Shown piece by piece: positions 25,070 to 42,475 of a DNA stretch of 64,000 nt. The stretch spans positions 16,059 through 80,058 of the IMG/VR virus record IMGVR_UViG_3300010389_003143. One strand, given 5' to 3'. The DNA comes from a virus. The position numbers and the translations under genes were made by a program. The notes beneath the pieces are model-generated. The model saw nothing but the letters and a program-made list of their open reading frames with translations. It ran no database searches and was not told where the DNA came from. Numbering within the stretch: the stretch's first letter is position 1; each line of letters starts with the position of its first letter.

Positions 25070-25078
25070 AAATATTAG
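25070..25078 (-). promoter_or_regulatory. Promoter-like motif CTAATATTT, copy 4
   Basis: Minus-strand GCTAATATTTA, 24 bases before the large orphan gene. It overlaps the stop codon (25075-25077) of the homing endonuclease upstream, so the endonuclease appears inserted just before an existing promoter. Confidence 0.4.
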
Positions 25079-26583
25079 CTGAAAATCCAAAGCCTTTGAC
25101 CAGCATCATAAATCTTTGACCAACCCCATTCTTTAGCCTGCTCAGCTTGACTTAAGCCTCTCTTGTCCATATTGGCTCGACATCTAAGTCTATTATAGGT
25201 TTTTCTCTTATCGGTCCATCTAAAGCCAAGTGTTTCTCTTTCCATCTGAAAGCCTAGCTGCTGCAAATAATTACCCGTGCCATACCTTAGATCCGCCCAA
25301 TAATGAATCGGAAGCTTTTTTGAGTTATCTCTTATCTTAGATATAAGCCTTGAGGCTCCTCCGACAACAACCGTTTCAACTTTTGAGCATAGCCTTTCTA
25401 TCTTTAGATATTCTGAGTAAACCTTATAAGAAGCAGCCATAATAATTTCATCATTATGGATAAGACCAAAAGCAGGGGCGTTAAAGCTGCCCATTAGGTG
25501 ATTCTTTGAGAAAAACTCTCTTGCCTCTTCTGCGGTTAGTTTTCTAATCTTTGTTTTTCTGGCATAAAAAATCCTGCTTCTTCCTTCTGCATTATTTATC
25601 ATTGATTTTATTATTTCAATCTTATCGTAGACCTCATCTTCTCTAAACTGAAATATTCTCAAGCCAGAATCTTCAAAATCCTTCCTAAGGTTAAAGTGAT
25701 AATTTTTATCGACCCCATTAAAGTCGGAGTGCCAATAAAGTCCATCAACATTGATGGCAGTCAAGCTATTTAATTTAAAGTCCGGCTTATATCTTAATCC
25801 AGGGTATCTTTCAAGGTCAAAAGTCTTGTTATAAAATTCTAGCCCAAGCTCTCTTGATAAAAGTGTTTCTAAATGATTGTTTTTGTCACCATGACCACTT
25901 ATATATTCGGCCACATCCCCTGTAGTTATAATTCCCTCTCTTATTAGCCTGTAGGCATTCACAGGAGGTACAGAAGCTTCCAAGCAGGCCTGATTGACGG
26001 TTCTCCCGTCCTCTAGCGTGCTAATCAGACCCCTATCAATCTTTGTGGATATTATCTTTCTTACAACATCTTCGGATTGAGCCGGGTGTCTTACTCCAAG
26101 TTTTTTTAAGTTTGTTTCCTCCGCCTTATTCCTTACTTCAGAGTTCTGCATCGGATTTTCTACGCCATATTTTTCTTTTACAGATTTTTTTATCTTTTTC
26201 TTTATAACATCCGACTGAAATGAGTGCTCTACACCATATCTTTCCCTATTTGTCTGAACAACTTTTCTCATTCTAGCTTTCTGCTTTAAATTATTATCTT
26301 TTTTAATATTATTCTTTCTAAGAGCAGAAGCAATAGTCGGATCTGTGACGCCGGCCATTTTTGCCATGTCCACGGTTGACATATTTTTAACAATATAATT
26401 ATCGTAAAGCCACTCCTTATCTAGATGGTATTTTGGCCTAGATAAAGAGTACTTTCGAATTCGATCTTTAACATATTTGTATGATCGATTAATTTTCTTG
26501 GCTATTTGATTAATTGATAGCCCTTGATTTATGTAAAGATTTGTAAGCAGATCTTTAGTTAAATCTTCTTTTACCACCCCCAC
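25075..26583 (-). CDS. Free-standing homing endonuclease with HTH repeats and Vsr-like nuclease domain
   Basis: A 502-residue protein of the HEG type. The N-terminus has helix-turn-helix modules (GLSINQIAKKINRSYKYV; STVDMAKMAGVTDPTIASAL). Next come three repeats of the form RYGVEHSFQS, KYGVENPMQN and KLGVRHPAQS, a DNA-binding repeat common in phage homing endonucleases. A Vsr/EDxHD-like nuclease domain follows (AINVDGLYWHSDF, then HFNLRKDFEDSGLRIFQF). The C-terminal part resembles an acetyltransferase-like fold (LTAEEAREFFSKNHLMG). It overlaps the nrdB end and lies next to nrdA/nrdB, genes often flanked by mobile endonucleases in T4-like phages. Confidence 0.75.
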   Translation of the reverse strand: MGVVKEDLTKDLLTNLYINQGLSINQIAKKINRSYKYVKDRIRKYSLSRPKYHLDKEWLYDNYIVKNMSTVDMAKMAGVTDPTIASALRKNNIKKDNNLKQKARMRKVVQTNRERYGVEHSFQSDVIKKKIKKSVKEKYGVENPMQNSEVRNKAEETNLKKLGVRHPAQSEDVVRKIISTKIDRGLISTLEDGRTVNQACLEASVPPVNAYRLIREGIITTGDVAEYISGHGDKNNHLETLLSRELGLEFYNKTFDLERYPGLRYKPDFKLNSLTAINVDGLYWHSDFNGVDKNYHFNLRKDFEDSGLRIFQFREDEVYDKIEIIKSMINNAEGRSRIFYARKTKIRKLTAEEAREFFSKNHLMGSFNAPAFGLIHNDEIIMAASYKVYSEYLKIERLCSKVETVVVGGASRLISKIRDNSKKLPIHYWADLRYGTGNYLQQLGFQMERETLGFRWTDKRKTYNRLRCRANMDKRGLSQAEQAKEWGWSKIYDAGQRLWIFS

Positions 26584-27548
26584 TCTCCGTCCATTCCTGA
26601 GGCATTATAGTCGGTTACACGTTTCTCGAAGAAGTTGCTCATAGTGTCTCCATTGAGAACCCAGTCTAGCCAAGGTAGGGGATTTTCTTTAACACCATAA
26701 TTTGGCTTTAGACCAAGCTGAATAAGCCTACGATCAGCAATATATCTGATGTACTGCTTCATTTCATCCGCAGTTAGGCCTTCGACCGGCCCTACAGCGT
26801 AAGCTAAATCGATAACTTTGTCCTCAAGCTTAACGGCAGTCTTGTACATCTCATAAATAGACTTTTTAAACTCATCATTAACAACTCTTGGGTGTTCTTC
26901 ACAGAATGTGCGGAAAAGCTTTGACATATATTGGACGTGAATGGTCTCGTCTCTTACTGACCACTCAACGATAGTACACATGCCCTTCATTTTTCCAAAT
27001 CTTTGGTAATTTAGAAGCATAACAAAAGCAGAAAAAAGAGACATACCCTCATTGCAAACAGATTGAGCCAGAGATAGCCCGATTCCTCTTTTTGAGGAAA
27101 CATTTGTGCTCTGCATGAACTCAAGCTTTTCAGCCATCTGCTCATATTCGAGAAAAGCCCAATATTCTTTTTCCTCAAGGCCCAGGGTATCATTCAAAAG
27201 AGCATAAGCACGCTGGTGAGTGCCCTCTCTATTTGCAAAGCTAAGCAGCATATTTCTTATTTCGTTATTTTTGAAAACAGGAATAAATAAGTCACAATAA
27301 TTTCCTCCGACCTGTACGTCAGTCTGAGTAAATAACCTTAAGATTTGGGTAATATGCTCTTTTTCGTGATGAGTAAGGGCCTTGCTCTTCCATTGGTTTA
27401 CATCCTCCTGTAATTCGGCCTCCCAGGTGCCCCAGTGAACCTTTTCATGGGCCTCCGCAGCCTCCATAGCCCATGGGTACTGAAATGGCTTGTAGGCCTC
27501 AGATGAATTTAGTAATCCGCCCCTATTTATCCCTGACATGATAGACAT
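26571..27548 (-). CDS. nrdB: Ribonucleotide reductase, class Ia small (radical) subunit
   Basis: A 325-residue NrdB that carries the diiron-tyrosyl radical used by NrdA to make dNDPs. Visible ligands are E-x2-H in REGTHQRAY, with the radical tyrosine four residues after the histidine; a Glu in VCNEGMSLF; and E-x2-H in RDETIHVQ. The C-terminal tail SGMDGEWGW is acidic and aromatic as expected for docking to NrdA. The start overlaps the 3' end of nrdA by 22 bases; a second ATG three codons in lies at better spacing from AAGGAG and may be the true start. It overlaps the homing endonuclease gene by 13 bases. Confidence 0.93.
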   Translation of the reverse strand: MSIMSGINRGGLLNSSEAYKPFQYPWAMEAAEAHEKVHWGTWEAELQEDVNQWKSKALTHHEKEHITQILRLFTQTDVQVGGNYCDLFIPVFKNNEIRNMLLSFANREGTHQRAYALLNDTLGLEEKEYWAFLEYEQMAEKLEFMQSTNVSSKRGIGLSLAQSVCNEGMSLFSAFVMLLNYQRFGKMKGMCTIVEWSVRDETIHVQYMSKLFRTFCEEHPRVVNDEFKKSIYEMYKTAVKLEDKVIDLAYAVGPVEGLTADEMKQYIRYIADRRLIQLGLKPNYGVKENPLPWLDWVLNGDTMSNFFEKRVTDYNASGMDGEWGW

Positions 27549-30244
27549 TCTCCTTCTTCTTCTGCATAATCCGCTAACGCAACTCTCTCTACTTTTGCCG
27601 AAACCTTCTCTGGATCAACTCCGGCATTTGTTCTTAGATAATAAAGCGCTTTCAGACCCATTTTCCAAGCTTTAATATGGGTCATTAGAACGTAGTTCTT
27701 ATTGGACCCAGCTGGGAAGAATAGATTTACGCTCTGCCCCTGGCATATAAATTCCTGTCTTCCACCAGCATGCTCAACAACCCATCTCTGGTCTAGCTCA
27801 AAAGCCGTCTTGAAAACAGATCTTTCCCAGTCGCTAAGAAAGTCAAGATGTTGAACAGACCCTTGATTGAGGATTACGGAATTCCAAGCTTCTTCCTTTT
27901 CTTTTTCGTCTAGATAGTTATCAAAGACCTTATCTAGCTCGGGGTTCTTTACCAAAAATGATCCAGCCCTTGTTCTGTGAGTATAGGCGTTTGACTTCCA
28001 AGGCTCAATTGACGGACTTGTGGCTAATATAATAGAGCTATTTGCATTAGGGGCTATAGCAAGAAGATGTGCGTTTCTTACTCCGCTTTCGGGGCCGTCT
28101 GGATAAGCTCCCTTTTCATCGGCAAGCCTTCTGGTCTCTTCTGTCGCTCTTTCTTTAATATCGCTAAATATAGAAGAATTCATAGCTGTAGCCATAGCGC
28201 TTTCCCACGGTATTCCGTTTCTCTGAAGAAGATCGTGGAAGCCCATTGCTCCAAGGCCGATGCTCCTCTCTCCTCTGGCTCCATTTACAGCCCTCCAAAG
28301 CTCCTTTGGAGCATTCTCGATAAATACGTCCAAAACGTTATCGAGCATTCTTACTAGGTCCTGAACAATCTTGGTGTCTTTCCACTCATCCCATTTTGCA
28401 AGATTTAGACTGCTCAGGCAGCATACGGCAGTCCTATCAGCCGCCGTAGGCAAAAATATTTCAGAGCACAAGTTTGAGCCATTTATTCTTAGATCCAAAT
28501 CTTTAAGCTCTTTTGGAAGATGCTTATTTGAGGTGTCTATAAAATGAAGATAAGGTTCGCCGGTTCGGTATCTTGTTTCGATAATCCTCTGAAGAAGCTC
28601 TCTTGCACCTAGGGTATCTCTAACTGTTCCATCCGCAGGGTCTACGAGGTTCCAGTCTTCATTTGCTATAGCTGCCTTCATGAAATCGTCAGTTATATTT
28701 ACAGCATTATGCAAATTAAAACACTTTCTATTTGGATCACCGCCAGTTGGAATTCTCATTTGTAAAAATTCAACAATATCAGGGTGTGAGATATCTAGGT
28801 AAGCAGCATATGAGCCCTTCCTGGTATTTCCACAGACTAGAGATCTACCGTTACTTCTTACTAGCAGTTTGCCTTCTGGAACTAATGCACAGTAAACATA
28901 TCCATCATAAGGGACCTCTTCCTTCCTAACCCTTTGAGTTGTGAAATGGTTTTTGTTTGAGACTACAACATAAAAAGAATTTTTTCTTGGATATTCTCTC
29001 TGCTGCTCTTTAATTCTAGCTCTTTTGCCAGCTAAAGTAGCTGCAGTAAAGACAGTATCAGCGCATGCTTTGCTTACTGATGAATATGTAAAGTTTGTTG
29101 CCCTCTTACTTGAGTCCCAATTAGATACTTCATCCAAGAAGCTCGTAAGCCATTCATAACTTCTTGTTTCTGGCCTTACCCAAGAGAGGTCTTTTGACTC
29201 CCAAGCATAGTTGGGGACATCGGGGATATTTCTTACATCGCTGACTTTCACCCTGATTGTGCAAGTTCCATCATTTCTATAAATAAGATTATAGCTATAG
29301 TTAGACTCTCTAACTATTCTGAGCAACCTATCGATCTTTCTCTGCTTCTTAAAATGAAACTCAATAGACTTACCGTTATAATTAGTTCCATCAGCCTGAA
29401 AGGCGACAAGAAGTCTGTCTGAATTTGAAAAACTTTCTTTATTATTATTTTTAATTTTTCCAGAAAAAGCCATTCTCACTTCAGAGTGTGATGGAAGCAT
29501 ATCAGCCCTTACTTTTTGAAGATCGTCATTCCAGCCACCCTTGGTCTTTCTGTCTATAACCATTGAGTGATTTGGAGTTACCATAATATCAACATTTTTT
29601 TCATCCACTACACGGATAAGGTTGCCATTATGATATTCTCTTACAAGCTCTATCGGCTTGACAAACGACACTTCGCCCCTGGAGGTTACCTGCGCGACCT
29701 TATCATGGTCGGTTAGTTCGGAAAACTTAATGTAGCCTTTGTCCGTCAATACCTCAACATCAGGGTGGTAACACTTGCCCTGGCGATAAGCATTCATATC
29801 TGCGTCAACTGTTTTTAGGAATGGAATTGGTCCGGGTGACTTTTCCGAAACAGAGCGAACTGATGACCAGTGGCCACCGACCCCGCCTCCCTTGACAGAT
29901 AGCCATCTAAGCTCTGAGGAATGCTCTATAAGGCCCTCAAGGGTGTCGTCGACCCAGGTAAGGAAGCAGCTTATCGGAAGCGCCCTCCAGGCCTCTCCGG
30001 GCTTTGGAGCATTGCTCAGAACGGGGGAGGCAAACATGAACCAGCCCTTGCTTGCGTAATCATAAATTCTTTGGGCAAAACGAAGGTCGCCGTCGCAATA
30101 AGCGAGAGCTGCTCTACCAAACGCCTCCTGGGGCGAGGTTTCTTCGTTCAGCATGTAGTACTGTTTTAACAGGGTTTTTGAAAAATCATTTAAATTATCA
30201 TCTCTGTCGAAATCCAGCAGGATTCCGCCGTACTCAGTGCTCAT
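27527..30244 (-). CDS. nrdA: Ribonucleotide reductase, class Ia large subunit, interrupted by an intein
   Basis: A 905-residue precursor. Without the intein (residues 158-473) the mature subunit is 589 residues, shorter than the ~750-residue bacterial form because the N-terminal ATP-cone is missing. NrdA reduces ribonucleotides to deoxyribonucleotides using a radical received from NrdB. Diagnostic parts include SSELRWLSVKGGGVGG, NLCSEIFLP (active-site region with Cys and Glu), TAVCCLSSLNL and the C-terminal redox pair CLSCQG. The intein interrupts the conserved AYRQGK / TRKGSYAAYLD strand. Upstream lies a ~370-bp non-coding leader, then the terminator of the stress-kinase operon. Confidence 0.93.
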   Translation of the reverse strand: MSTEYGGILLDFDRDDNLNDFSKTLLKQYYMLNEETSPQEAFGRAALAYCDGDLRFAQRIYDYASKGWFMFASPVLSNAPKPGEAWRALPISCFLTWVDDTLEGLIEHSSELRWLSVKGGGVGGHWSSVRSVSEKSPGPIPFLKTVDADMNAYRQGKCYHPDVEVLTDKGYIKFSELTDHDKVAQVTSRGEVSFVKPIELVREYHNGNLIRVVDEKNVDIMVTPNHSMVIDRKTKGGWNDDLQKVRADMLPSHSEVRMAFSGKIKNNNKESFSNSDRLLVAFQADGTNYNGKSIEFHFKKQRKIDRLLRIVRESNYSYNLIYRNDGTCTIRVKVSDVRNIPDVPNYAWESKDLSWVRPETRSYEWLTSFLDEVSNWDSSKRATNFTYSSVSKACADTVFTAATLAGKRARIKEQQREYPRKNSFYVVVSNKNHFTTQRVRKEEVPYDGYVYCALVPEGKLLVRSNGRSLVCGNTRKGSYAAYLDISHPDIVEFLQMRIPTGGDPNRKCFNLHNAVNITDDFMKAAIANEDWNLVDPADGTVRDTLGARELLQRIIETRYRTGEPYLHFIDTSNKHLPKELKDLDLRINGSNLCSEIFLPTAADRTAVCCLSSLNLAKWDEWKDTKIVQDLVRMLDNVLDVFIENAPKELWRAVNGARGERSIGLGAMGFHDLLQRNGIPWESAMATAMNSSIFSDIKERATEETRRLADEKGAYPDGPESGVRNAHLLAIAPNANSSIILATSPSIEPWKSNAYTHRTRAGSFLVKNPELDKVFDNYLDEKEKEEAWNSVILNQGSVQHLDFLSDWERSVFKTAFELDQRWVVEHAGGRQEFICQGQSVNLFFPAGSNKNYVLMTHIKAWKMGLKALYYLRTNAGVDPEKVSAKVERVALADYAEEEGECLSCQG
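28826..29773 (-). mobile_element. Intein in NrdA with degenerate LAGLIDADG endonuclease
   Basis: A 316-residue intein (residues 158-473). It starts at Cys158 (CYHPDVEVLTDKGYIKF, block A), has block B TPNHSMV, and a weak LAGLIDADG-type region (RLLVAFQADGTNYNG; WLTSFLDEVSNW). It ends LVCGN before Thr474. The penultimate residue is Gly rather than the usual His, so splicing may rely on a variant mechanism or be slow. Excision would leave GK-TRKGS, matching uninterrupted NrdA. Confidence 0.88.
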
Positions 30245-30610
30245 TTATTTCCCCAATTTTCATCTTTAAATTTTTCGTTTTAGCTGAAGCGATCGTGGCT
30301 AAAGATTTATGCATGAAAATTGTTTCGACAATAATTTTTAAGTCTCTTCTACACAACTTCTTACTTACCTTTAACCACTTAAACTTGCAAAAAAATTGTT
30401 ACGAATTTATTCGTTCCAAAGAAATCTGCGTACTTAAGCCTTCCATTTTAATAGATTTTCAGACCTTACATTAGAGGGCTTGCTTTAGAATCTTATTGTT
30501 TTTCTTTTGTTTTATATATTCTTTTGAGCATCTAAAAAAAAAATAATTTTTTATTAAATTTACAAAATCTCATAGATCCATTCGATGCTTAAAAGCCTGA
30601 TTTGAACTGA
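30245..30610. other. Non-coding leader of nrdA
   Basis: About 366 bases without a credible gene; the longest frames on either strand are short and lack ribosome binding sites. It contains an ACGAAT-TT-ATTCGT palindrome at 30401-30414 and a run of ten A at about 30534-30543. This is where the nrdA promoter and any regulator site should lie, but I cannot identify a confident promoter. Confidence 0.4.
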
Positions 30611-30643
30611 CAAAAACGGCCCGAGCATTTTGTAGCCCGAGCC
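30611..30643 (-). terminator. Rho-independent terminator of the prkA-yeaH-spoVR-dac operon
   Basis: On the minus strand GGCTCGGGC and GCTCGGGCC pair over nine positions including two G-U pairs, with loop TACAAAAT, followed by GTTTTTG. It lies 30 bases after the stop of the diadenylate-cyclase-like gene. The arms look like direct repeats at first sight, but the wobble pairing makes a strong stem. Confidence 0.7.
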
Positions 30644-30672
30644 ATCTCAAATTATGAAAGTTAGCTGATCAG

Positions 30673-31239
30673 CTATTCATCTGACGGATCAAACTGCTCT
30701 ACGAATGTGCCATTCTTCCAGGTTCTCACTACTGCAGTTTCTTCAGATAGCGTGAATACCGCTATAATATCTTCTCGCGTAGAAAAAGATGCAGCACTAA
30801 TATGCCTTGTGCCGCAGCCATCGGGTACATCAAGAGATGAGTCATCAACTACCAGGTAAATCTTTGATCCAATTATTTGACCGTTTCTATTAACGATTAT
30901 AGCGCCGTCAGCACCTTCGTTCAACATAGAGAAGACATCTTTCGTAAAAGCATCCTCACATATGTTTATGTACTTCTGTATAGGATTTACCCCTATCTGC
31001 CTCATGCCAGGAACCATGTGATCGTCAGATTTGTCGAAAACTCCAAGAACAATTATAAGTCCAATATTTCTATTTTCATTAAAGTTATTTCTAGATATTT
31101 GGGACAATAGCGTGAATATACTTTTTTCTACTTTTTGGAAATCTCTTGCAGCATTAAACTGATATGAGAAATCTATGCTAGAGATTTTTCTAGAAAATTC
31201 TGGCTTGCTGACTTTTGCGGTCTCCAAGTCATTACTCAT
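30673..31239 (-). CDS. DisA_N/DAC-domain protein, predicted diadenylate cyclase (c-di-AMP synthase)
   Basis: A 188-residue protein made almost only of a DAC domain. The two catalytic signatures are present: DGA at 111-113 (ADGAIIVNRNG; the Asp binds metal) and GTRH at 143-146 (CGTRHISAA), where Arg and His contact the ATP phosphates, followed by SEET at 165-168, the acidic metal-binding motif. The usual RHR-A triplet is RHI-S here, a notable change. No HhH or CBS domain and no membrane segment, so it differs from DisA, CdaA and CdaS. It is the last gene of the PrkA-YeaH-SpoVR operon, 19 bases after spoVR, and its stop codon lies in the palindrome TAGCTGATCAGCTA (30662-30675). Enzymatic activity is inferred. 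Confidence 0.78.
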   Translation of the reverse strand: MSNDLETAKVSKPEFSRKISSIDFSYQFNAARDFQKVEKSIFTLLSQISRNNFNENRNIGLIIVLGVFDKSDDHMVPGMRQIGVNPIQKYINICEDAFTKDVFSMLNEGADGAIIVNRNGQIIGSKIYLVVDDSSLDVPDGCGTRHISAASFSTREDIIAVFTLSEETAVVRTWKNGTFVEQFDPSDE

Positions 31240-31258
31240 GACCTTCCCCTGGTTTATT

Positions 31259-33745
31259 TTAGTTGCTAAAACCTAATTCATCATAGGTGTAATTTATAAT
31301 AAAACCAGAATCATCTATTGTCTCTAGATTTAGCGGAGATCTCCAGGCCTCATATATGTATTCCATAACTTTCTCTGCATGGGTTACATCTAAGGTTCCT
31401 ATATTTTTTGAAACATGGTCAAGTTGCAAAAAGCCATCTTCAATACCCGTTATAGCTATAAGCGGTGCCCTATAATTATAAAGATCCTTCGTAAGCGATT
31501 CAACAACGCTATTTAGGTCTGTTCCGGTTATGTGAATGCCCCGATCTCCGCCAGGAGTCTGGATATCCTTATAACTAAACAGCTTAAGCTCTTGTGCCAA
31601 CTCTTTTGTTAAATAATTTCTAATAAAGGATATATCGTCTTCCGTTTCTACAACTTTATAGACTTTCTCTAGCCCAGTCAGGCTTGAGGTGCCCTCCTCA
31701 TGGAATCGGTCCCACCTTTCCTTTATATCTGTAAATATCTTAAAGCCTAAGAAATACGGGTTTATATTTAAGCTATTTCTTCCTGGCTGCACGACCTTTT
31801 CGTGAAGTCCACAGAAATCTAGATGCTCTCCATGATTTATACATTCCAAATCAGACATTAAGTAAGCGTGAACAAAGCTTGCAAATCCTTCGTTCATTAT
31901 CTTTGTCATGTACTGCGGATAGAAGTAATAAGTTTCTTCCCTTATGATTTCAAGAATGTCTACCTGCCATGACTCAAGGCTATTTGAATAATTAATCAAG
32001 AACCATAGTATATCCTTTTCCGGATTGGGAGGAAATCTATTCTTTGGCACAACCATTTTTTTCGACATGGACTTTTCGTCCAGCAGGTCCGAGAACTCAT
32101 CTTTTGCCACAGTCTTAAAGTACTTTTTCTTTCTTGGGTATTTGCTGCGCCTTAGACCTTTGTGCCAGTCTATATGCTTATCCAGAGCAAAGCCAATATC
32201 CATAATTCTTTCGACAGCGTCTATTCCGTATTTCTGAATATATTCCTCTATTCTTTGCGCTCTTTCTGCGGCATGGTAGACCATCTTATTATCAGTTTTC
32301 TTAAATAAATAATTATTTTTAAAGAAATGACAGTTGTGAGCTATCATTCCATTGTCAATAACAAAACTGTGATCTTCTTCAACTTCTATATCATAGACTG
32401 GGACCTCTTCGAGTAACTCGACTCTTCTTGCCATAGTCACTTTTGAAAATAGATGCTCATCGGTCTGCTCTGAAAAAGACCAAGTGCGATTTATCTCTTT
32501 CTCAAAATTGATATCGCAAATTTCAAGAAGCTTTCTGTGAGCCTTCCCATGTACACTTAAATCATAACAGGTTTTTCTGCCCTTCCGACTCCTGGACTTT
32601 ATGCTTGCTTTAATTCCAAAATCTTTAAGAATGGACTTTGTCTTATAAGCCAGCTCACTACTTGTTGTGGTAAAGCTTGACTGGTATTTATCGCCCTTAA
32701 TATGGCCATCACCCTCGAATAGGCCTCTAATCATGCCTATCATAAAATCTCTTGGAGTATCCGGGTCTGCTGCAAAATTTGGAATAAATTTATTATTGGA
32801 GTGCCGACCACACTCTTTCTCAAGGAACATTCCAAATGACTTGTCATACACCATAACTCTCCTTGAAGAGTCAGACTCTCTTATGGTGACTCCGGTGTTT
32901 ATGCCCAACTTTTCAAACCAGTTCTGAATAAAGTCCGAATATGAGGCTTCATCTTTATGTAGCGAAAATGCAAAAGATGTATTGTTACGACTTCCTTCTG
33001 CTATATATAATCCAATTATTCTGCCAAAATCGCAGTCTAAATCAACCTGATATCCGCCAAACTTATTGGCCAACTCCTTCTTCCATCTAGGTGTTGGTCT
33101 TGATACTTCTATGGGAATAAGTATGCTCTTTTTATTTTTGCTATATGATATCTTTGGAGTTATCACCAAATCGTTTTCGGTAACGTCTTTTGCTTCGCAC
33201 CAGAACATCATATTGTCACGCTTAATCAAAAGTCTATGCTCGGGGGTGCATCGCGATGGGCTTTCCTCTCCCTTTACTCGAATCTCAACCAGATCCTTTG
33301 TTTTTTTGGTTTCCCTTGACTCGATAACTTGGCGGTATCGACCTTTGTGAGTTAAAACCATATCTCCTGGAACTATACTCTTTATGTCTACGAACCCCCT
33401 CGTTGTCTCGACCCTTGTGTCTCCGACAAAGCAGTGCCCAATTACGTGAGCTATGACCATAGTATTTGCTATATCAGAGTTTGTATCCAGCAAGAATGCA
33501 TAGGACGGGTTGTTATTCAAAACAACCTCATAAACCTTGGAAAAGCCCATTTCTCCTTGCATCTTCTGATAATCATAGGATTGGCCGTAACTCCAGTGCC
33601 TAGCCCTTGTTGGTAGTCCATAGCTGATAACCTCAAGCATTGTATCTTGAGATACAACCTCGTAATTTATCGGATAAGGGTCGAGATTCATATCTTCGGC
33701 CATCTTTTCCAAGATTTTTATTCTTTCAGTTAGGACCTTGTTCAT
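31259..33745 (-). CDS. spoVR: SpoVR/YcgB-family protein, interrupted by an intein
   Basis: An 828-residue precursor; the mature protein after removing the intein (residues 105-471) is 461 residues, close to bacterial SpoVR/YcgB. The N-terminus has MAEDMNLDPYPINYEVV, SYGLPTRARHWSYGQSY and VLNNNPSYAFLLDTN; after the intein CHFFKNNYLFKKTD, the family's H-x-FFKNN signature; later YFYPQYMTKIMNEGFASF and NPYFLGFKIF. In Bacillus it is a cortex-formation protein; in enterobacteria ycgB is coexpressed with prkA/yeaH in stationary phase and nitrogen starvation. Its start overlaps the upstream yeaH-like stop by four bases. Biochemical role unknown. Confidence 0.93.
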   Translation of the reverse strand: MNKVLTERIKILEKMAEDMNLDPYPINYEVVSQDTMLEVISYGLPTRARHWSYGQSYDYQKMQGEMGFSKVYEVVLNNNPSYAFLLDTNSDIANTMVIAHVIGHCFVGDTRVETTRGFVDIKSIVPGDMVLTHKGRYRQVIESRETKKTKDLVEIRVKGEESPSRCTPEHRLLIKRDNMMFWCEAKDVTENDLVITPKISYSKNKKSILIPIEVSRPTPRWKKELANKFGGYQVDLDCDFGRIIGLYIAEGSRNNTSFAFSLHKDEASYSDFIQNWFEKLGINTGVTIRESDSSRRVMVYDKSFGMFLEKECGRHSNNKFIPNFAADPDTPRDFMIGMIRGLFEGDGHIKGDKYQSSFTTTSSELAYKTKSILKDFGIKASIKSRSRKGRKTCYDLSVHGKAHRKLLEICDINFEKEINRTWSFSEQTDEHLFSKVTMARRVELLEEVPVYDIEVEEDHSFVIDNGMIAHNCHFFKNNYLFKKTDNKMVYHAAERAQRIEEYIQKYGIDAVERIMDIGFALDKHIDWHKGLRRSKYPRKKKYFKTVAKDEFSDLLDEKSMSKKMVVPKNRFPPNPEKDILWFLINYSNSLESWQVDILEIIREETYYFYPQYMTKIMNEGFASFVHAYLMSDLECINHGEHLDFCGLHEKVVQPGRNSLNINPYFLGFKIFTDIKERWDRFHEEGTSSLTGLEKVYKVVETEDDISFIRNYLTKELAQELKLFSYKDIQTPGGDRGIHITGTDLNSVVESLTKDLYNYRAPLIAITGIEDGFLQLDHVSKNIGTLDVTHAEKVMEYIYEAWRSPLNLETIDDSGFIINYTYDELGFSN
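32333..33433 (-). mobile_element. Intein in SpoVR with LAGLIDADG endonuclease
   Basis: A 367-residue intein, residues 105-471 of SpoVR. Cys105 starts block A (CFVGDTRVETTRGFVDI); block B is CTPEHRLL; the two LAGLIDADG motifs are IIGLYIAEGSRNN and MIRGLFEGDGHIKG; blocks F/G are VYDIEVEEDHSFV and NGMIAHN before Cys472. All canonical splicing residues are present, so it should be active. It sits at the highly conserved H-x-FFKNN site. Confidence 0.92.
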
Positions 33746-34932
33746 TTTTTAACCTCTTTGTATGCTCTTCCATCTATGTTAAAGAATAACTTTAACGCAT
33801 CAAAAACTTCATCCTTAGATGATATCCTCATTGAAACGAATCTTGTTCTCTTTATTTCACCCTCTAGCATATAAGAGAGTTTCTTATCATCCGTCCCCCA
33901 AGAATATGAATCGCCAAGGTCTATTTCTCCATACCCTATTGCTCTGACCATCGGCAGCATTTTTTTAACGTAATCAATGACGAGCATGTTGTCATTAAAC
34001 CAGTTGTCGCCGTCGCTGAACTCAAAAACATAATTATTCCACTGATCAGCAGGGTGATGCTCACTCATATGCTCGTAGGCAAGCTTAAAGGCCGAAGAAC
34101 ACTTTGTGCCCCCAGAGCCGCTCATACTAAAGAATTCTTTTTCAGTTGTAGTAAATGCACTTACATCATGGGCGATAAAAACAAGTGATATATTTTTATA
34201 TCGCCTCTTAAGAAACTGAACCATCCAGAAATAAAAGCTCTTTGCAATAAAGACTTTATCTTGTGTCATGGAGCCACTGATGTCCATCATAAGATAAACC
34301 GCAGCGTTTGATAAATACTCTTTATTTACCTCATAATGGCGATACCTTAAATCGTCTTCATTGATTCCGCCGATTTTCGCCTCACCTTTTGCAGCGTTTC
34401 TCTTTAGGTTTTGAATTAAAGTCTTTTTTAGATCTAGATTTGGATAAATACCCTTTTTATTTATAGAGGAAAGCTCCTCTGTCTCTATCTCTATAAAAGA
34501 AGACTTCTCCGGCTCCATCCATGGGAGATTTAGCTCATCCATAAGGATCTCAACAAGCTCATCTATGGTGACTTCTGCATCATAGAAGACCTCGCCCTCT
34601 TTGTCGCCTGCCTTATCTCCTTTTCCCTTTCCTTTCTTCTTTTTATTTATCCTAAATTTATCACCGCCCTTGACATCGAGGCCTTGGCCTGTGCCTGAGC
34701 TGTTATTTAGCTTTCCGTACTTAAACTTATACCTATCGAGAAATCTAATCGGCACCTTTATCTTTTTATCGCCATCGGACGTAATGATATTGTGCTCAGT
34801 GATTAAGTCCTTTCCGTTTTTGCGTATAGCATCGTTTACAAGCTTTTTGTGCCTCTCAGAGTCTCTCTTGCCCCTTTGCTTTAGCTTCCAAATATCGGAA
34901 AGATTTTCACGCGATTTCGGAGAGCCAGACAT
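33742..34932 (-). CDS. yeaH: DUF444/YeaH-family vWA protein
   Basis: A 396-residue DUF444 protein. The N-terminal third is basic and charged, including DRYKFKYGKLNN and a lysine/glycine-rich linker (NKKKKGKGKGDKAGDKEG). Residues about 205-390 form a vWA domain: MIDAS motif DISGSM beginning at Asp217, then SGSGGTKCSSAF and EFSDGDNWF. In bacteria YeaH is encoded next to the PrkA kinase and is a proposed substrate or partner of it, in stress and stationary-phase responses. Here it lies between prkA (2 bases upstream) and spoVR (4-base overlap), the same gene set as in bacterial genomes. No intein. Confidence 0.92.
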   Translation of the reverse strand: MSGSPKSRENLSDIWKLKQRGKRDSERHKKLVNDAIRKNGKDLITEHNIITSDGDKKIKVPIRFLDRYKFKYGKLNNSSGTGQGLDVKGGDKFRINKKKKGKGKGDKAGDKEGEVFYDAEVTIDELVEILMDELNLPWMEPEKSSFIEIETEELSSINKKGIYPNLDLKKTLIQNLKRNAAKGEAKIGGINEDDLRYRHYEVNKEYLSNAAVYLMMDISGSMTQDKVFIAKSFYFWMVQFLKRRYKNISLVFIAHDVSAFTTTEKEFFSMSGSGGTKCSSAFKLAYEHMSEHHPADQWNNYVFEFSDGDNWFNDNMLVIDYVKKMLPMVRAIGYGEIDLGDSYSWGTDDKKLSYMLEGEIKRTRFVSMRISSKDEVFDALKLFFNIDGRAYKEVKK

Positions 34933-34934
34933 TA

Positions 34935-37900
34935 TTAATTCCTTGCCATTAAGGAGCTTACGTATCTGAGAAGCTTGTTTGCGCTTTCTGCGTTGTATCC
35001 ATGCTTATCGCATAGAGTCTGCACAACTACGTTTACTCTCTTTAGCTCTTCTTCGTCGGGGTTTCTGGCAGATACGGTTAGTCGAATGACATCCTGCCTC
35101 TCATCGAATAGCTGCTTCTGAAGGGCCTCTCTGAGCTTTGCGTGCTCTCTGTAGTCATAAGCGCCACCATTTGTTCTGGCGGACTTAAGCATCTTTCTGT
35201 AGATCTCCTGGCGGAATGAGTTTTTGCCAGACTCAGTAATCCCAACCTTCTCTTCGATTGAGCGCATCAGCCTCTCATTCGGAGGAGAATACTCGCCCCA
35301 TTCGTCCTCAATCTTTGCTCCATCGAGGTAAGCGCCGACATGATCCATGTAGTTGGACAGAAGGTTCTGAATCTCAGACTCGAAGTTTACGAAGAATGCC
35401 TTCTGGACCTCATTTCTGGCAATCTTAGAATACTCCTCGATAACTGTCGTAAGGATATTGTCCAGGCGGTCAATCTCCTCCTTATCGAGCTTCGGATTTG
35501 AACTAAAGCCATCTCTAATTGCTCTGATTGCATCGATAGGAGTGAGGCAGCTGGTTCCGTCTTGAGCTAGAGCTGATGAAAGCCTATTTATAATGTATCT
35601 CGGAGAAACACCGCCCATGCCCTCTGCCTCAAATTCTTTCTTGAGAGTTGGTACATCGGATTGAGAGAATCCGTCGACCTCCTCTCCATCATAAAGCTTC
35701 ATCTTGTTTAGCTGAGTTAGGCCATTATTCTTAGAATCCTTAAGTCTAGATAGAATTGCGAACATTGCTGCGCAATGCAGCGTGTAAGGCGCTATATGTA
35801 CGTTCTTGAACATAGCCTGGCCGATAAGCTTCTCGTAGATCCTTACTTCCTCTGATACCTCAAGGTTATAGGGAACCTTTACGACAATAATTCTGTCATG
35901 AAGGGCTTCCATTTCGTCCTTTGCTAGGAAACGCTTATACTCGGTCTCGTTAGTGTTATGGCAAAGAACCTGCCCTATACCTGCGACGAATGAGTGATTT
36001 CCTTCACATGCAATGTCGAATACTTCTAGTGACTCTACATATAGAGATTCTATTTTATTTACACCAGCATTTGTATTCTTTAGCCTAAAACGGATACCGT
36101 AGGCATCTTTTCCAGTTGTCGTGTAACCATGATAAATCGAGTAATCCTTACCCAGAATAGAGGATATAAATCCAACTTGGGAGGCAAGCATCTTTGAAGT
36201 AGTTTTGTATCTAAAGAAGTTTTCCTCATACTCTTCACTTGCATTATCAAAGTAGAAGTTTGTGGAGCCATCACCTTTTACTAATTCGTCTAAGAAAAAT
36301 GTTAGCATCTCATTGCTTAGATTGAATACAAAGTTCGGAACCTTCTTGCCATCGGAGTATTTGCCGCAGTTTAGCTCCAAGAGGTCTTTCCATATCTTGG
36401 TTGACAAATGAAGTCTGCTTGTTCTATCTTTTTTATCGCTTCTGTCCTGAAGAGAAGATGTGGAGGTGCTAATTCTTTCGGACGCAGACTTTATGAGGCT
36501 AAGCTCGTTTAATGACTGCTGACTAATAATGGCATGAGCGCTATTTACATGTCCCTCAGTAATATACCATGCCATAGTTTTTAGCAAATCTTTTACATCT
36601 TGAGTGTCCTTAAGATTGTATCTAACTTTAACTTTATTTTTTCTAAATTGGCCATTACCCTTATATCCTTCGATATCCTTTATTCTGGCATAGCCATCAT
36701 CATCAACTTCCATATCTTCTGATAGCTCCAAGGTAAAGCTCTCTGCAACTTCAATTAGCGGAGCTTCTCTTAGGGCGCAAACATCTAGTTTATCCTCGGG
36801 ATAGAATGGCTCAAGATCATCAGAGTAAATAGAGTGATTATACGTAGTTTCTACAACTCCATTTTTTTGAATAGTTTTAATTAGATTTCCAGTAAATGGA
36901 TGGCTATAAAAATTCTTTACCTTTGTCCATTCAAATTCTTTTGTATTTAAATTCATGGCAATAACTTCAATGTTAGTATCGCCCGCCCTAGCTAGATCTG
37001 CGATTGTATCAAACTTTACTAGTCCATCTTTTCTATAGGGAACAGGCTCATCGCCAACAATACTATGAGCTAGCAAAAACTCGTCAGCATAAATGAACGG
37101 AAATCTGCCAGTTTTAATATTTTTCTCTTGAGCAAGGGTCAGGAGAACATAAAGGAACTTCTGATCGACTTTGAGCATCTCAACGAACTCCATGATGCCT
37201 CTATTCGCTACGTTCAGCTCTCCATCAAAGCGGTAGGCTCTGGGGTCTGACTCAGAACCGAATTCGCCAATCTTGCTCAAGTCCATTGAGCCTACAAGCT
37301 CGGATACATCCTGACTCTTCTTGTCTGATGGAACAAACGTTCCCACTCCTATTCTGGACTGCTCTGAGAAGAACATTCTTTCTACAGGCAGCTTAAGAAA
37401 GTCTCCATCATACTTTTCCTTTAGGATAAGGTCCATGTAAGGAGAAAGCTTTCCATCAATCTTTATGCCATAATCGTCAAAGAACTTCTGCCTTAGTGAT
37501 TCGGGGATAGCAGTAAGCGGATCCTCATACATTGGAGACTCTGATAAGCAGTAGGTCTGGCCCTCATCCGTCTTGGCGAACTTCTCAAGACCTCTCTTCA
37601 GGGAGACGGCTAGCTGGGACTTTCCGGAAGAAGTGGGTCCGTATAGCAGAAGGATTCTTCTGGAAACCTCAGACCCGGCGGAAGCAGCCTTTAGGTAGGA
37701 CATAATCTCTGTAAGCGATTCATCTATTCCGAAAAGATCCTGGTCAAAGAAGTTGTATTTCGTGATATTGCCATCCTCATCGCGCTCGATGCCTTGGGAC
37801 TCAATCATTCTCAGAACTCTGGTGTGAGAACTCATATGAATTTCTGGATTTTCCGTAACCATGCCAATATAGTCAGCAAGAGTCCCGCTCCAGTTTAGTG

Positions 37901-37964
37901 AACTTTCTTCGTCAACATGATTTTCTAATAGCTTTAGAAGATTTGTTTTCTTAGATTGAGGCAT
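34935..37964 (-). CDS. prkA: PrkA-family AAA+ serine protein kinase, interrupted by an intein
   Basis: A 1009-residue precursor; minus the intein (301-670) the mature protein is 639 residues, nearly identical in length to bacterial PrkA/YeaG. The AAA domain has Walker A GPTSSGKS at 109-116. Further recognisable parts are SCPMHEDPL-like SESPMYEDPLTAIP, GVGTFVPSDKKSQDVSEL, NRGIMEFVEMLK, and after the intein TNETEYKRF and DRIIVVKVPYNLEVSEE; the C-terminal kinase-related domain has SPRYIINRLSSAL and DEWGEYSPPNERLMRSIE. PrkA phosphorylates serine/threonine in stress regulation. It opens the four-gene module with yeaH, spoVR and the DAC gene. Confidence 0.94.
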   Translation of the reverse strand: MPQSKKTNLLKLLENHVDEESSLNWSGTLADYIGMVTENPEIHMSSHTRVLRMIESQGIERDEDGNITKYNFFDQDLFGIDESLTEIMSYLKAASAGSEVSRRILLLYGPTSSGKSQLAVSLKRGLEKFAKTDEGQTYCLSESPMYEDPLTAIPESLRQKFFDDYGIKIDGKLSPYMDLILKEKYDGDFLKLPVERMFFSEQSRIGVGTFVPSDKKSQDVSELVGSMDLSKIGEFGSESDPRAYRFDGELNVANRGIMEFVEMLKVDQKFLYVLLTLAQEKNIKTGRFPFIYADEFLLAHSIVGDEPVPYRKDGLVKFDTIADLARAGDTNIEVIAMNLNTKEFEWTKVKNFYSHPFTGNLIKTIQKNGVVETTYNHSIYSDDLEPFYPEDKLDVCALREAPLIEVAESFTLELSEDMEVDDDGYARIKDIEGYKGNGQFRKNKVKVRYNLKDTQDVKDLLKTMAWYITEGHVNSAHAIISQQSLNELSLIKSASERISTSTSSLQDRSDKKDRTSRLHLSTKIWKDLLELNCGKYSDGKKVPNFVFNLSNEMLTFFLDELVKGDGSTNFYFDNASEEYEENFFRYKTTSKMLASQVGFISSILGKDYSIYHGYTTTGKDAYGIRFRLKNTNAGVNKIESLYVESLEVFDIACEGNHSFVAGIGQVLCHNTNETEYKRFLAKDEMEALHDRIIVVKVPYNLEVSEEVRIYEKLIGQAMFKNVHIAPYTLHCAAMFAILSRLKDSKNNGLTQLNKMKLYDGEEVDGFSQSDVPTLKKEFEAEGMGGVSPRYIINRLSSALAQDGTSCLTPIDAIRAIRDGFSSNPKLDKEEIDRLDNILTTVIEEYSKIARNEVQKAFFVNFESEIQNLLSNYMDHVGAYLDGAKIEDEWGEYSPPNERLMRSIEEKVGITESGKNSFRQEIYRKMLKSARTNGGAYDYREHAKLREALQKQLFDERQDVIRLTVSARNPDEEELKRVNVVVQTLCDKHGYNAESANKLLRYVSSLMARN
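35955..37064 (-). mobile_element. Intein in PrkA with LAGLIDADG endonuclease
   Basis: A 370-residue intein, residues 301-670. It starts with Ser301 (SIVGDEPVPYRKDGLVKF), block B is TTYNHSIYSDD, LAGLIDADG motifs are MAWYITEGHVNS and FFLDELVKGDGSTNF, and it ends VFDIACEGNHSFV and GQVLCHN before Thr671. A Ser1 intein with Thr +1. Excision restores the conserved LLAH-TNETEYKRF of PrkA. Confidence 0.9.
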
Positions 37965-38255: not shown

Positions 38256-38441
38256 CTACTCTTCCTCTTCTGAATTATATATTACGATATCTTTTTCTAC
38301 TTTTAGCTTGCCAGCTAAAGAAAAATCTCTTAATATTTTCTTTTTAAATTTCGCGTCGGTAACCCTAATTGTTATCTCTAGGTCATTAGACTTTGGGTTG
38401 TATAGAAAGTTTTTTATCTTACCTATTTCTTTTTCCGTCAT
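38256..38441 (-). CDS. Small hypothetical protein, 61 aa
   Basis: Begins MTEKEIGKIKNFLYNPKSND; alternating beta-forming residues (LEITIRVTDAKFKKKI, KLKVEKDIVIYN) and an acidic end. No family recognised. It abuts the zinc-ribbon gene directly and overlaps the gene before it, so it belongs to the same operon. Confidence 0.5.
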   Translation of the reverse strand: MTEKEIGKIKNFLYNPKSNDLEITIRVTDAKFKKKILRDFSLAGKLKVEKDIVIYNSEEEE

Positions 38442-38736
38442 AAAGCGACTCTATTGCTGTTTTGATATGAGGGTTGTCTATTTCATTCAAAAGAAATAGC
38501 AGATCTGTTTGAGGCAGTTTTTCTATTTTAGCAATTGATGACAGTGGCACATGCAATATAAAGCTAGGCTTTTCACCTGCAGATAATCCTTCAAAATCAT
38601 CGCTAATCGGCACAACTGCAAGTGAGTCATCTTTCATGCTAATGCTATTTACTATATATTTTTTAGAAATATCTGCATATATTGTTTTTAAAATAATTAA
38701 GTCATTTTTGCGAATAGATTCGATGTTATATTTCAT
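38419..38736 (-). CDS. Hypothetical protein, about 105 aa
   Basis: The frame opens at 38766, but ATG codons at 38742 or 38736 (MKYNIESIRKNDLIILK) are more likely because they overlap the helicase stop in the usual coupled way. Predicted mixed fold with IVNSISMKDDSLAVVPISDD and FILHVPLSSIAKIEKL. No family recognised. Confidence 0.5.
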   Translation of the reverse strand: MKYNIESIRKNDLIILKTIYADISKKYIVNSISMKDDSLAVVPISDDFEGLSAGEKPSFILHVPLSSIAKIEKLPQTDLLFLLNEIDNPHIKTAIESLYDGKRNR

Positions 38737-40093
38737 TTTCATCACCAAAATCTTCCGCCCAGTCATCCGGCATATCTTCTATTCTAGAGTTTGGAAATAC
38801 CTTTCTTAGCGATACTTTGCCCTTCGCACCGTCTCGGTTTTTAACTATATGGATCTCCATATCTTCGCGAAGGCGCTCGTCTTCCCTGTTGGCTATTATA
38901 AACACGACCGCAGCGTTATCTCCAATCATTTTTGAGCGTCCAAGATCTTCGAGAGAGACATCGTCAAGCTTTTTGCCGCCGGTCTTTTTCTGCTGAGCCT
39001 TTCTTTGCGCCGCAGTTACAACTGGAATATTCTTTTTCCTGCAAAACTCATGAAGCTCCTCTGACACTCGGCCTACATCTAGCCAATCTGATCCAACCTG
39101 ACCTATCGTGGGCTTCATTAGCTGCAGGTAATCCACGAATACAGCATCTGGCTTGAAAACTCCAAGAAGATTTTCATACTTAGCCTCGATCTCCCCCATT
39201 GTTGTTCCGCGAGGCATGTCCAGAACGTAAAATACTTTATCATAATCTTTTTGAAAATCTAAATTAGCAAGCCATCTCTTTTCTTCTACGTCGGTAAGCT
39301 GCGCTCTTGCGATGCCTCTGTGTCTTACATTTGCCACATTTGCATCCACCCTTTGCTCTAGCTGCTTTTTGCTCATCTCAAGAGATATATAAAGAACATT
39401 TTTTCCATCGTTGAATCCGGTAACGCCCTCAGACGGGACGTTGCTTCCAAGCCATGCATTAATTGCCATGTTCATCATCAACATTGACTTACCAGAAGAG
39501 CTTGCGCCGCCAATTACAAGCATCTCAGAGTTTTTAATGCCCCAGGTGTAATCATCCAGCTCTTTGTAACCAGATAGAAAACCTCTAATTTCATCCGGGT
39601 TCTCCATCGTATATTTATAGTCGTCCACTCTTGAGTCAACGGACTGAGTTACGTTGCCCTCGGTAAAAACGTCAGATTTATAGAGCCTTTCTGTTTTGGA
39701 TATTATCCTTTTTAGCTCATCGTTGTAGTCGACCAACGATTCATAATCCGAATCCAGCTCTTCTGCTTTTTCTGCAAGACGATCGATTAGATATTTGTTA
39801 TATCTTTCTTTTATTCGATCAATATAGAAGCCTATTTCATTAGCGCTACAACTTTCACCTCTGATAAAGTCTATTATTTCGGTCTCTTCCTCTTCTGCAT
39901 CAAGAAGCTTTTCCAGAACCTCATACGATGGAGGACTCTTGTGTCTGGAGTAATAAGAGTGAATTTGAAGTGTAGCAGGCTTAAAGCTTGGGAGGACAAC
40001 CAGCTTCAAGAGATCAAACTCTATCTGCATATAAACATCATTTACATTGGATGATCCCTTGAGCATCCAATTTAAAATTTTGGCATCATGCAT
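38726..40093 (-). CDS. dnaB: Replicative DNA helicase (DnaB/gp41-type)
   Basis: A 455-residue RecA-fold hexameric helicase. Walker A is GGASSSGKS at 195-203; the Walker B region reads AVFVDYLQLMKP; an arginine-finger region and VSLEDLGRSKMIGDNA follow, close to the DnaB family motif DLRESGxIEQDAD in position. The N-terminal domain (to ~150) is helical and lacks clear DnaB N-domain motifs, as in phage gp41-like proteins. The start overlaps the stop of the loader gene by one base (TAATG), typical of helicase/loader pairs. Central to phage DNA replication. I saw no primase in the window. Confidence 0.92.
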   Translation of the reverse strand: MHDAKILNWMLKGSSNVNDVYMQIEFDLLKLVVLPSFKPATLQIHSYYSRHKSPPSYEVLEKLLDAEEEETEIIDFIRGESCSANEIGFYIDRIKERYNKYLIDRLAEKAEELDSDYESLVDYNDELKRIISKTERLYKSDVFTEGNVTQSVDSRVDDYKYTMENPDEIRGFLSGYKELDDYTWGIKNSEMLVIGGASSSGKSMLMMNMAINAWLGSNVPSEGVTGFNDGKNVLYISLEMSKKQLEQRVDANVANVRHRGIARAQLTDVEEKRWLANLDFQKDYDKVFYVLDMPRGTTMGEIEAKYENLLGVFKPDAVFVDYLQLMKPTIGQVGSDWLDVGRVSEELHEFCRKKNIPVVTAAQRKAQQKKTGGKKLDDVSLEDLGRSKMIGDNAAVVFIIANREDERLREDMEIHIVKNRDGAKGKVSLRKVFPNSRIEDMPDDWAEDFGDENEI

Positions 40094-40764
40094 TATTTTC
40101 TCCGATAATCTTTGCCGCCAACGATAAACACGTCGACATGTCGTGACCTAAGTGATTTGAAAGATTTTGCGAAGAACCCCCCAAATATAGAATCTAAGTC
40201 ATTATCATTTGAGCATAATATGGTCGGCAATTGGTTCTGGAACCTTGTTCGCAAAACATACTCAAGAGAAGTACCAAATAGCTGCTCGGCCTTCTCGGAT
40301 GGAAAAATCCAATGAGATGAAAATTCATCTATAACGAGAAAGTCCTTGCCGATGAGTTCCTCATAGTATTTCGAGGTATCCATCTGGCTGGATAGCATGT
40401 TTGCAACAACATCCGCCATAGTTGTGTATAGTGCCGAATACCTATTTGCTATCGCAAGTTTTAATATGCAACATGCGGTATAGGTCTTCCCGGTACCAAG
40501 ATTTCCTGCAAAGATTAGCGACTTACCTGCATCATATAGGGCGTCTATATCTTCTATTCTTTGCTTTATCGTTCTCTTAAAGTTTGGGTCACCCTCAAAG
40601 TCCTTGAAAGACTTCGACCAATACTCTACCGGAATATTCGCGGAACAATATTTGTCTAGTCTTGCGGATTTTGCCTCGCACCTTATGCAACCATCTCCTG
40701 AACAGGCGGTACAAGACTCCTTAACCTGCTCTTTTTTTCTCTCAATCTTTTTCCTCGGAATCAC
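40093..40764 (-). CDS. dnaC: DnaC-like AAA+ helicase loader
   Basis: A 223-residue protein with N-terminal cysteines (SCTACSGDGCIRCEAK, a possible zinc site) and an AAA+ domain: Walker A GNLGTGKT at 87-94, Walker B FLVIDEFSS, sensor-like LPTILCSNDN. This is the DnaC/DnaI/IstB-type helicase loader, which places the DnaB-type helicase from the next gene onto DNA. The upstream gene overlaps by 23 bases. Confidence 0.9.
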   Translation of the reverse strand: MIPRKKIERKKEQVKESCTACSGDGCIRCEAKSARLDKYCSANIPVEYWSKSFKDFEGDPNFKRTIKQRIEDIDALYDAGKSLIFAGNLGTGKTYTACCILKLAIANRYSALYTTMADVVANMLSSQMDTSKYYEELIGKDFLVIDEFSSHWIFPSEKAEQLFGTSLEYVLRTRFQNQLPTILCSNDNDLDSIFGGFFAKSFKSLRSRHVDVFIVGGKDYRRK

Positions 40765-41564: not shown

Positions 41565-42467
41565 TTAAAATCCAATAAATTTTTTGGCCGTGCCAACGTA
41601 AGATTGCCCAAACCACGCCATATCCAAGTAGCTTTCAAGAAATTTCTCCATCGCCTCCACGATTGGTAGATTCCAGTCTAATTCATTAGACATTTCTAAA
41701 GCAGCTTCTTTTTGCCTTTTTTCCGCAGACCTAAGCACAGCAAGCGGATTAACTCCCAGTGAATTAAAGCTATAAGCAATTTCTCTTAGTCCGTCAATCT
41801 CATATTTTAACATTTTGCACTGCCAAGCGAACAAGCTTATAATCTGGAATGTTGAGAATTCGCCCAGAACCTTCGGGAGATGCTTTACTCCTAGCGCAAT
41901 GTGCCTTGCCTCATCTTTCTCATAATATATAAGCAAATCTGAAAGAATTGGCTCTACGTTATTTTTTCTTAATTGAGAAAATATAGATATTGCTACAGGC
42001 TCAACCATAAGCTGCATCCCAAGTAATCTTCTAGCCATATCTGACGCTGCTAAAACTTCATTCAATCCAACTTCTGAGTGCTCTGTCAAAAAGCCTCTTC
42101 CATCTGGCTCATAATCTAAAACTTTTCTCATGTAATCAAGCATAACATAAAAATGTCTTGCTTCATCGTGTGCCTGTGAAGTCGCGGCTAATTTAGCACC
42201 CATATCGTCTATTTCTGCCGCCAAAAAAGCTGAGGCTTTCCACGCTACTAGCTCTCCCCAAAGGATAAGAGTTAATATCCTTATTAAAGACCCTCTTTTT
42301 TCCTCACTCAGCGTTGGTTTTCCGTGCTTTTCGATAAGTTCTGAAAGAATCTTCCTTCCATCCCAAATATTATTTTGTCCCTTGTGATAAATATTGCTAA
42401 GAACCTTAGTCGAAGAGGCGAGGTGATCGTTATTTTCTTTTGCAATTTCAAAATTTATTCCAGACAT
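41565..42467 (-). CDS. Ferritin-like diiron protein
   Basis: The start is taken at the ATG at 42465-42467 (MSGINFEIAKENNDHL), where AGGTGA lies upstream, not at the longer open frame to 42551; about 300 residues. A four-helix diiron site is visible: Glu in WGELVAWKAS, E-x2-H in SQAHDEARHFYVM, Glu in MVEPVAI and E-x2-H in YEKDEARHIALG. Two ExxH motifs on paired helices match ferritin-like oxygenases and R2-like proteins, but there is no radical tyrosine at the NrdB position. Substrate unknown; candidates include a fatty-acid-desaturase-like or N-oxygenase-type enzyme. It is separate from nrdB at 26571. Confidence 0.72.
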   Translation of the reverse strand: MSGINFEIAKENNDHLASSTKVLSNIYHKGQNNIWDGRKILSELIEKHGKPTLSEEKRGSLIRILTLILWGELVAWKASAFLAAEIDDMGAKLAATSQAHDEARHFYVMLDYMRKVLDYEPDGRGFLTEHSEVGLNEVLAASDMARRLLGMQLMVEPVAISIFSQLRKNNVEPILSDLLIYYEKDEARHIALGVKHLPKVLGEFSTFQIISLFAWQCKMLKYEIDGLREIAYSFNSLGVNPLAVLRSAEKRQKEAALEMSNELDWNLPIVEAMEKFLESYLDMAWFGQSYVGTAKKFIGF

Positions 42468-42475
42468 TATTTCAC

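Follow-up and report, generated by a model that had tools for sequence, protein, structure and literature searches.

A diadenylate cyclase domain protein encoded next to SpoVR in the PrkA-YeaH-SpoVR cassette of one jumbo-phage lineage

The IMG/VR virus record IMGVR_UViG_3300010389_003143 (80,058 bases) contains, in the stretch of 64,000 nt analyzed here (record positions 16,059-80,058; the window), genes for the PrkA, YeaH and SpoVR families of the bacterial stress/sporulation module, followed by a gene for a stand-alone protein with a diadenylate cyclase (DAC) domain. The cassette forms the 3′ end of a longer run of replication genes, which opens with the replicative helicase genes, and the adjacency of spoVR and the DAC gene is a trait of one jumbo-phage lineage, not a general bacterial association. 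Both the trio, phages included, and DAC domains are already known; their combination was not encountered in the literature searched. No paper joining SpoVR and diadenylate cyclase was retrieved, although a review of DAC architectures (Galperin 2023) may mention this phage group, and a survey of jumbo phages (PMC7824862) includes no SpoVR, PrkA or DisA.

Linkage of SpoVR and DAC in viruses and bacteria

When 2.9 million viral contigs were scanned for YeaH alone, 12 loci were recovered, all of which (12/12) carry the DAC gene directly behind spoVR. The scan with the DAC profile and the one with a broader profile, which included archaeal DACs, converged on the same set of 17 contigs, the longest of 395 kb, of which about 12 are distinct and the others near-duplicates; DAC identity among them goes down to about 50%. 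SpoVR, either whole or truncated where the contig stops, lies immediately upstream of DAC in 16/16 other contigs having upstream sequence, while one contig ends at the DAC gene, and neither scan found a virus with this DAC apart from SpoVR.

Across the distinct loci the SpoVR-DAC junction ranges from -1 to 93 bp and is never interrupted. The other junctions have been invaded in some members (L005, L006, L010, L012 and L046), with inserts of 838 and 3887 bp between PrkA and YeaH and of 498 to 2008 bp between YeaH and SpoVR, several of them being homing-endonuclease-like DUF7487 genes; furthermore, synteny 3′ of DAC is broken in many members. DAC itself is under strong purifying selection (pN 0.10-0.19 versus pS 0.77-0.81 between close pairs). 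Since the SpoVR-DAC junction remained intact while the others and the downstream synteny did not, and since the protein is so constrained, these data argue that DAC is a selected protein kept beside SpoVR. The preliminary description of this DNA had assigned DAC to the cassette, which the conserved position, the purifying selection and the retained pocket residues bear out; it had also looked to repeated adjacency in unrelated genomes, and here the outcome is divided, because the arrangement recurs in 16 other viral contigs but within a single phage lineage.

A bacterial origin of the linkage was considered and rejected: DAC was found near PrkA in 0/80 bacterial PrkA loci (23 with SpoVR), and in 13/13 sampled bacterial genomes with both genes these either lie on separate contigs or have about 1 Mb or more between them. 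A DAC-profile scan of the GTDB genomes, limited to two peptide patterns, found no relative of the phage DAC. Other phage DACs were also sought. Most CdaA-type matches in the phage collection were whole CdaA genes in short records lacking annotation, from Listeria, Staphylococcus, Enterococcus or faeces, and most likely represent host DNA; no DisA-type match was present in that collection.

The trio alone is common in phages. A wider YeaH profile identified it, without a linked DAC and in different gene orders, in over 20 further phage lineages, among them the Thermus phages YS40 and MN1 and megaphages of 527-642 kb, and searches of 26 such records over their whole length detected no DAC domain. 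In L048, a relative of the phages described here, the place of DAC behind spoVR is occupied by a cupin (mannose-6-phosphate isomerase-like) gene at 10587-10955. spoVR has been described as the most abundant sporulation-type gene in viromes of marine oxygen-minimum zones (PMC8940887). As to the placement of the DAC-bearing lineage among named phages, its DnaB, PhoH and terminase are only weakly similar to those of cultured phages.

The DAC protein and its archaeal relatives

The phage DAC is a soluble single-domain protein, devoid of transmembrane, helical-bundle and HhH domains. It scores 48.6 bits against PF02457 (cut-off 27), and 14 relatives score 44-51 bits. An AlphaFold2 model built from ten homologues is of modest quality (pLDDT 65, pTM 0.66); in a Foldseek search of PDB structures the best match reached an E-value of 3e-6 (TM about 0.55/0.65), and the listed top 50 were all DAC-domain structures. 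In the pocket, D-G, G-T-R-H and S-E do not vary among ten phage sequences with identity down to about 50%, and DG(A/S) is present in 12/12, whereas the bacterial RHR motif reads RHI in 12/12. A further sequence, L225, was examined as a possible RHL exception and rejected, as the correct reading frame gives GTRHRAA.

The phage protein shares the DAC fold and the DGA and TRH motifs with CdaA, CdaS, CdaM and DisA, but differs from them in having RHI instead of RHR, no accessory domains and sub-cut-off scores: the CdaA and DisA families give 21 and 16 bits (cut-offs 189 and 201), and neither can be assigned. The best family match is archaeal DacZ (NCBIfam NF041371), although it is partial (1.6e-13; 43-58 bits versus a cut-off of 430), with the phage DACs aligning only from about position 112-121 of 270. 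Both have a third motif residue other than arginine and a similar C-terminal part; the N-terminal region of about 110 residues, PK_C-like in DacZ, is missing in the phage protein. Two annotated Haladaptatus DacZ proteins read GTRHH, one of which was scored (450 bits versus the cut-off of 430), and Haloferax volcanii DacZ is an active, manganese-dependent cyclase (PMC6741144). Since DacZ-family proteins lack the second arginine and the Haloferax enzyme is active, its absence is not evidence of inactivity; RHI as a proof of a dead enzyme was therefore rejected, haloarchaeal DacZ-family proteins having RHH. Judging from the motifs, cyclase activity of the phage DAC is plausible.

Stand-alone DACs encoded on haloarchaeal plasmids (about 185 aa, with GTRHMSA and xLSEE motifs) are about 30% identical to the phage DAC and belong to the same size class, with a single domain. 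The phylogenetic tree joins them to the phage clade with a support of 99/92, although branches are long and the exact placement is unsure. These sequence comparisons set the phage DACs apart as a clade of their own, with archaeal proteins as the closest known relatives. The neighbours differ from those in the phages: some of the haloarchaeal genes (Haloarcula and Haloplanus plasmids) adjoin genes for Trk-type transport or cation:proton antiporters, others have unrelated neighbours, and no SpoVR was seen near the stand-alone DACs at the loci examined. The plasmids L265 (5707-6264), L267 (4722-5273) and L268 (4722-5273) each encode a small haloarchaeal DAC next to TrkA/TrkH or cation antiporter genes; this group, with GTRHM or GTKHL motifs, is uncharacterized.

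The cassette, its inteins and the rest of the window

The features of the gene run are collected in Table 1. prkA and yeaH are separated by 2 bp, yeaH and spoVR overlap by 4 bp, and 19 bp separate spoVR from the DAC gene. The terminator consists of an unbroken 14-pair stem (G-U pairs counted) of -22.3 kcal/mol; its stability corresponds to a z of -5.3 and was equalled in 0/200 shuffles. The coordinates, order, strand and gaps of the four genes in the preliminary description were exact, its strong terminator was confirmed, and its identification of the genes agrees with the Pfam matches, which are strong for prkA, yeaH and spoVR and clear for DAC. The four are indeed tightly packed; as an operon of four, however, they were delimited too narrowly, because the run begins further upstream, at the helicase genes. 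The zinc-ribbon gene is 3 bp upstream of prkA, which it adjoins in every locus covering that region, and is preceded without gaps by p61 (49-73% identity among DAC-bearing relatives), p115 and the genes for the DnaB-type helicase and the DnaC-type loader; the helicase gene is upstream of the module in relatives as well. A promoter scan gave 31 promoter-like sites versus 28.9 in shuffled sequences, i.e., no enrichment.

Table 1. Features of the cassette and of its gene run (window positions)
Feature	Position	Strand	Evidence
Intrinsic terminator 3′ of the DAC gene	30605..30650	-	RNA fold, U-rich tail
Stand-alone DAC-domain protein, 188 aa (DGA, GTRH-I, LSEE)	30673..31239	-	PF02457 7e-13
SpoVR family, 828 aa including intein	31259..33745	-	Pfam SpoVR 3e-106
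SpoVR intein, residues 105-471 (367 aa), with LAGLIDADG endonuclease domain	32333..33433	-	Intein_splicing 5e-13, LAGLIDADG_3 2e-17
YeaH/DUF444, von Willebrand A-like, MIDAS DISGS	33742..34932	-	Pfam DUF444 3e-81
PrkA-family AAA+ ATPase, 1009 aa including intein	34935..37964	-	Pfam AAA_PrkA 2.4e-112, PrkA C-terminal 2.5e-71
PrkA intein, residues 301-670 (370 aa), Ser1, C-terminal His-Asn, +1 Thr	35955..37064	-	Pfam Intein_splicing 2e-4
Zinc-ribbon (FmdB-like) protein, 95 aa	37968..38255	-	PHROG FmdB-like 3e-4
p61, conserved 61-aa protein without assigned function	38256..38441	-	Conserved in DAC-bearing relatives
DnaB-type replicative helicase	38726..40093	-	ATPase motifs; tblastn match to phage DnaB genes
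DnaC-type helicase loader	40093..40764	-	PHROG DnaC-like helicase loader 1.2e-25

PrkA has both the AAA_PrkA and the PrkA C-terminal domains, with intact Walker A (GPTSSGKS) and Walker B (IYADE) motifs, and YeaH matches the DUF444 profile and retains the DxSxS motif of the metal-ion-dependent adhesion site (MIDAS); its L001 homologue matches NCBIfam YhbH at 1.4e-106. The SpoVR profile spans the extein and covers 446 residues in the intein-free L001 homologue. Since the Walker motifs and the MIDAS are intact, the simplest reading, drawn from family knowledge, is that the AAA+ ATPase and its von Willebrand A partner YeaH may work on or with SpoVR. PrkA had been presented as a Ser/Thr kinase in the preliminary description, a role that is weakly supported: kinase activity was reported in older work on E. 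coli YeaG (PMC4664914), but K426, the residue mutated there as the kinase lysine, aligns with N in the PrkA of the phage and of Bacillus, and neither kinase nor protease activity was seen for B. anthracis PrkA, both activities being disputed for PrkA (PMC13001217). Because the lysine is not conserved and the B. anthracis protein showed neither activity, PrkA is foremost an AAA+ ATPase and its kinase action is doubtful. Loss of PrkA in B. anthracis results in poorer growth under osmotic stress/high salt (PMC13001217), and E. coli yeaGH is induced by hyperosmotic stress (PMC4664914).

Compared with the bacterial PrkA/YeaG-YhbH/YeaH-SpoVR/YcgB module, the cassette has the same three families, also adjacent, and the closest cellular relatives of its PrkA, about 50% identical, are mostly from Firmicutes; it differs in following replication genes, in carrying DAC as a fourth gene and, in this record, in containing inteins. 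Two of these, missing from the preliminary description, interrupt PrkA, between Walker B and the sensor-1 region, and SpoVR; the Intein_splicing score of the former is under the Pfam curated cut-off. The relative L001 is free of both, with a continuous PrkA sequence DEFLLAHTNETEY (junction ADEFLLAH/TNETEY) and a continuous SpoVR (HVIGH/VHFFKNN), and its ribonucleotide reductase is intein-free too. Further intein domains are found in the ribonucleotide reductase (27527-30244), ThyX (49735-51501) and a UvsW-like helicase (53613-56150), giving five in 64 kb. Free-standing DUF7487/HTH genes, probably coding homing endonucleases, are located behind the ribonucleotide reductase genes of the window (25075-26583) and, in relatives, inside the PrkA-YeaH-SpoVR module (L005, 9192-10772; L006, 9218-10990; L046).

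Elsewhere in the window, an 801-aa open reading frame (ORF; 56214-58619) combines glycosyltransferase group 1 and tubulin/FtsZ GTPase domains, representing either an uncommon fusion or two genes whose boundary was missed. At 61063-61941, 62050-62796 and 62786-63784, a NUMOD3 homing-endonuclease-like gene is flanked by two ORFs of the sugar-nucleotide dehydratase/epimerase-like type, which resemble each other but are encoded on opposite strands. The stretches 42000-44000 and 46000-50000 contain short uncharacterized ORFs; since their G+C content rises to 46-53%, versus about 39% elsewhere, they suggest recently acquired DNA. In three relatives (L245, L246 and L247), a DHH-DHHA1 phosphoesterase gene adjoins a short PurA-like gene, possibly in relation to purine or cyclic-nucleotide metabolism.

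Possible roles of the phage cyclase

c-di-AMP (cyclic di-AMP) generally controls potassium and osmolytes. Because the effects of PrkA loss, the induction of yeaGH and c-di-AMP share ion and starvation stress, a joint role is favoured, although it is held with a little less than even confidence: a nucleotide made by DAC would act together with SpoVR, YeaH and PrkA during phage replication to keep the host stress-tolerant. Two DAC protomers would face each other head to head and convert two molecules of ATP into c-di-AMP or a close 3′,3′-cyclic dinucleotide, with a synthesis timed to the replication phase. The nucleotide could be a ligand of a SpoVR-YeaH-PrkA remodelling machine, or could act on host targets of osmotic, potassium or starvation stress shared with it; as an outcome, the host would be held stress-tolerant and productive, favouring phage replication. 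The stronger form, a phage-specific class of diadenylate cyclases signalling through, or gating, the PrkA-YeaH-SpoVR AAA+ machine, is possible but stands on the unlikely side. Sequences and the structural model provide the components, the motifs, the fold match, the co-directional packing, the conservation and the purifying selection; catalysis, its product and the tie between nucleotide and trio are what we infer from them.

Several observations weigh against the joint role. L048, which is in the same clade (PrkA 69% identical), has the trio but no DAC, so that the trio does not need it, and confinement to a single lineage means that shared descent explains part of the association. No c-di-AMP phosphodiesterase gene was found beside DAC and no c-di-AMP receptor was identified; genes of the DHH-DHHA1 phosphoesterase type occur only in the three large relatives mentioned above (317-395 kb), elsewhere in the genome. 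In addition, the third RHR position is always basic in about 50 bacterial DACs (R, once K), and replacement of the whole RHR with AAA abolished the activity of the M. tuberculosis DAC (PMC3328451).

The nucleotide may instead reach only host receptors, affecting potassium/osmolyte transport and turgor and sharing with the trio the timing but not the pathway. The co-directional run with replication genes, the Trk and cation antiporter genes beside the archaeal relatives and the many phage lineages with the trio alone would fit this explanation, which is nevertheless somewhat unlikely, as a SpoVR-DAC junction that is never interrupted and the lack of any virus found with DAC apart from SpoVR speak against it. 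A linkage without functional meaning, in which DAC was inserted after spoVR in the lineage ancestor and synteny simply persisted, agrees with the restriction to one lineage, with the absence of DAC in L048 and with the frequency of the trio alone in phages; however, downstream synteny was broken repeatedly and other junctions were invaded while that between SpoVR and DAC stayed intact, and the strong purifying selection on DAC is a further reason to consider this very improbable.

Alternatively, DAC may only bind nucleotides, either as a sensor subunit of the trio or as a sponge for the cyclic dinucleotides of host defence, such as the cyclic-oligonucleotide-based antiphage signalling systems (CBASS). 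The change from RHR to RHI in all phage copies would be consistent with binding alone, and the phage protein Acb2 sequesters 3′,3′-cGAMP (cyclic GMP-AMP; PMC10286901). Moreover, recent work has validated a DAC as part of a CBASS-like defence of the host (DS-2; PMC13092281), which indicates that host CBASS can employ this domain and that DAC can take part in a phage-host conflict. DS-2, however, serves the host as a defence that includes cGAS and phospholipase, whereas the DAC described here is phage-encoded, together with PrkA, YeaH and SpoVR, and gave no match in the defence library PADLOC; furthermore, neither the catalytic D of DGA nor GTRH varies, even at about 50% identity, and archaeal enzymes of the DacZ family likewise lack the second arginine. 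A binding-only protein is thus distinctly unlikely.

The trio occurs across bacteria and in numerous large phages, although what it does biochemically is unsettled; the presence of a cyclase behind spoVR raises c-di-AMP as a possible ligand or switch. If the stronger form, signalling through or gating of the AAA+ machine, is true, the cassette would represent a phage-encoded second-messenger system and would provide the first known ligand for PrkA-YeaH-SpoVR. Encoding a diadenylate cyclase would also give a phage a new means of setting second messengers in its host, which bears on potassium balance and on those host CBASS systems that use a DAC. Taken at the level of the sequences, these findings suggest that viruses of this lineage may make a signalling molecule in the cells they infect.

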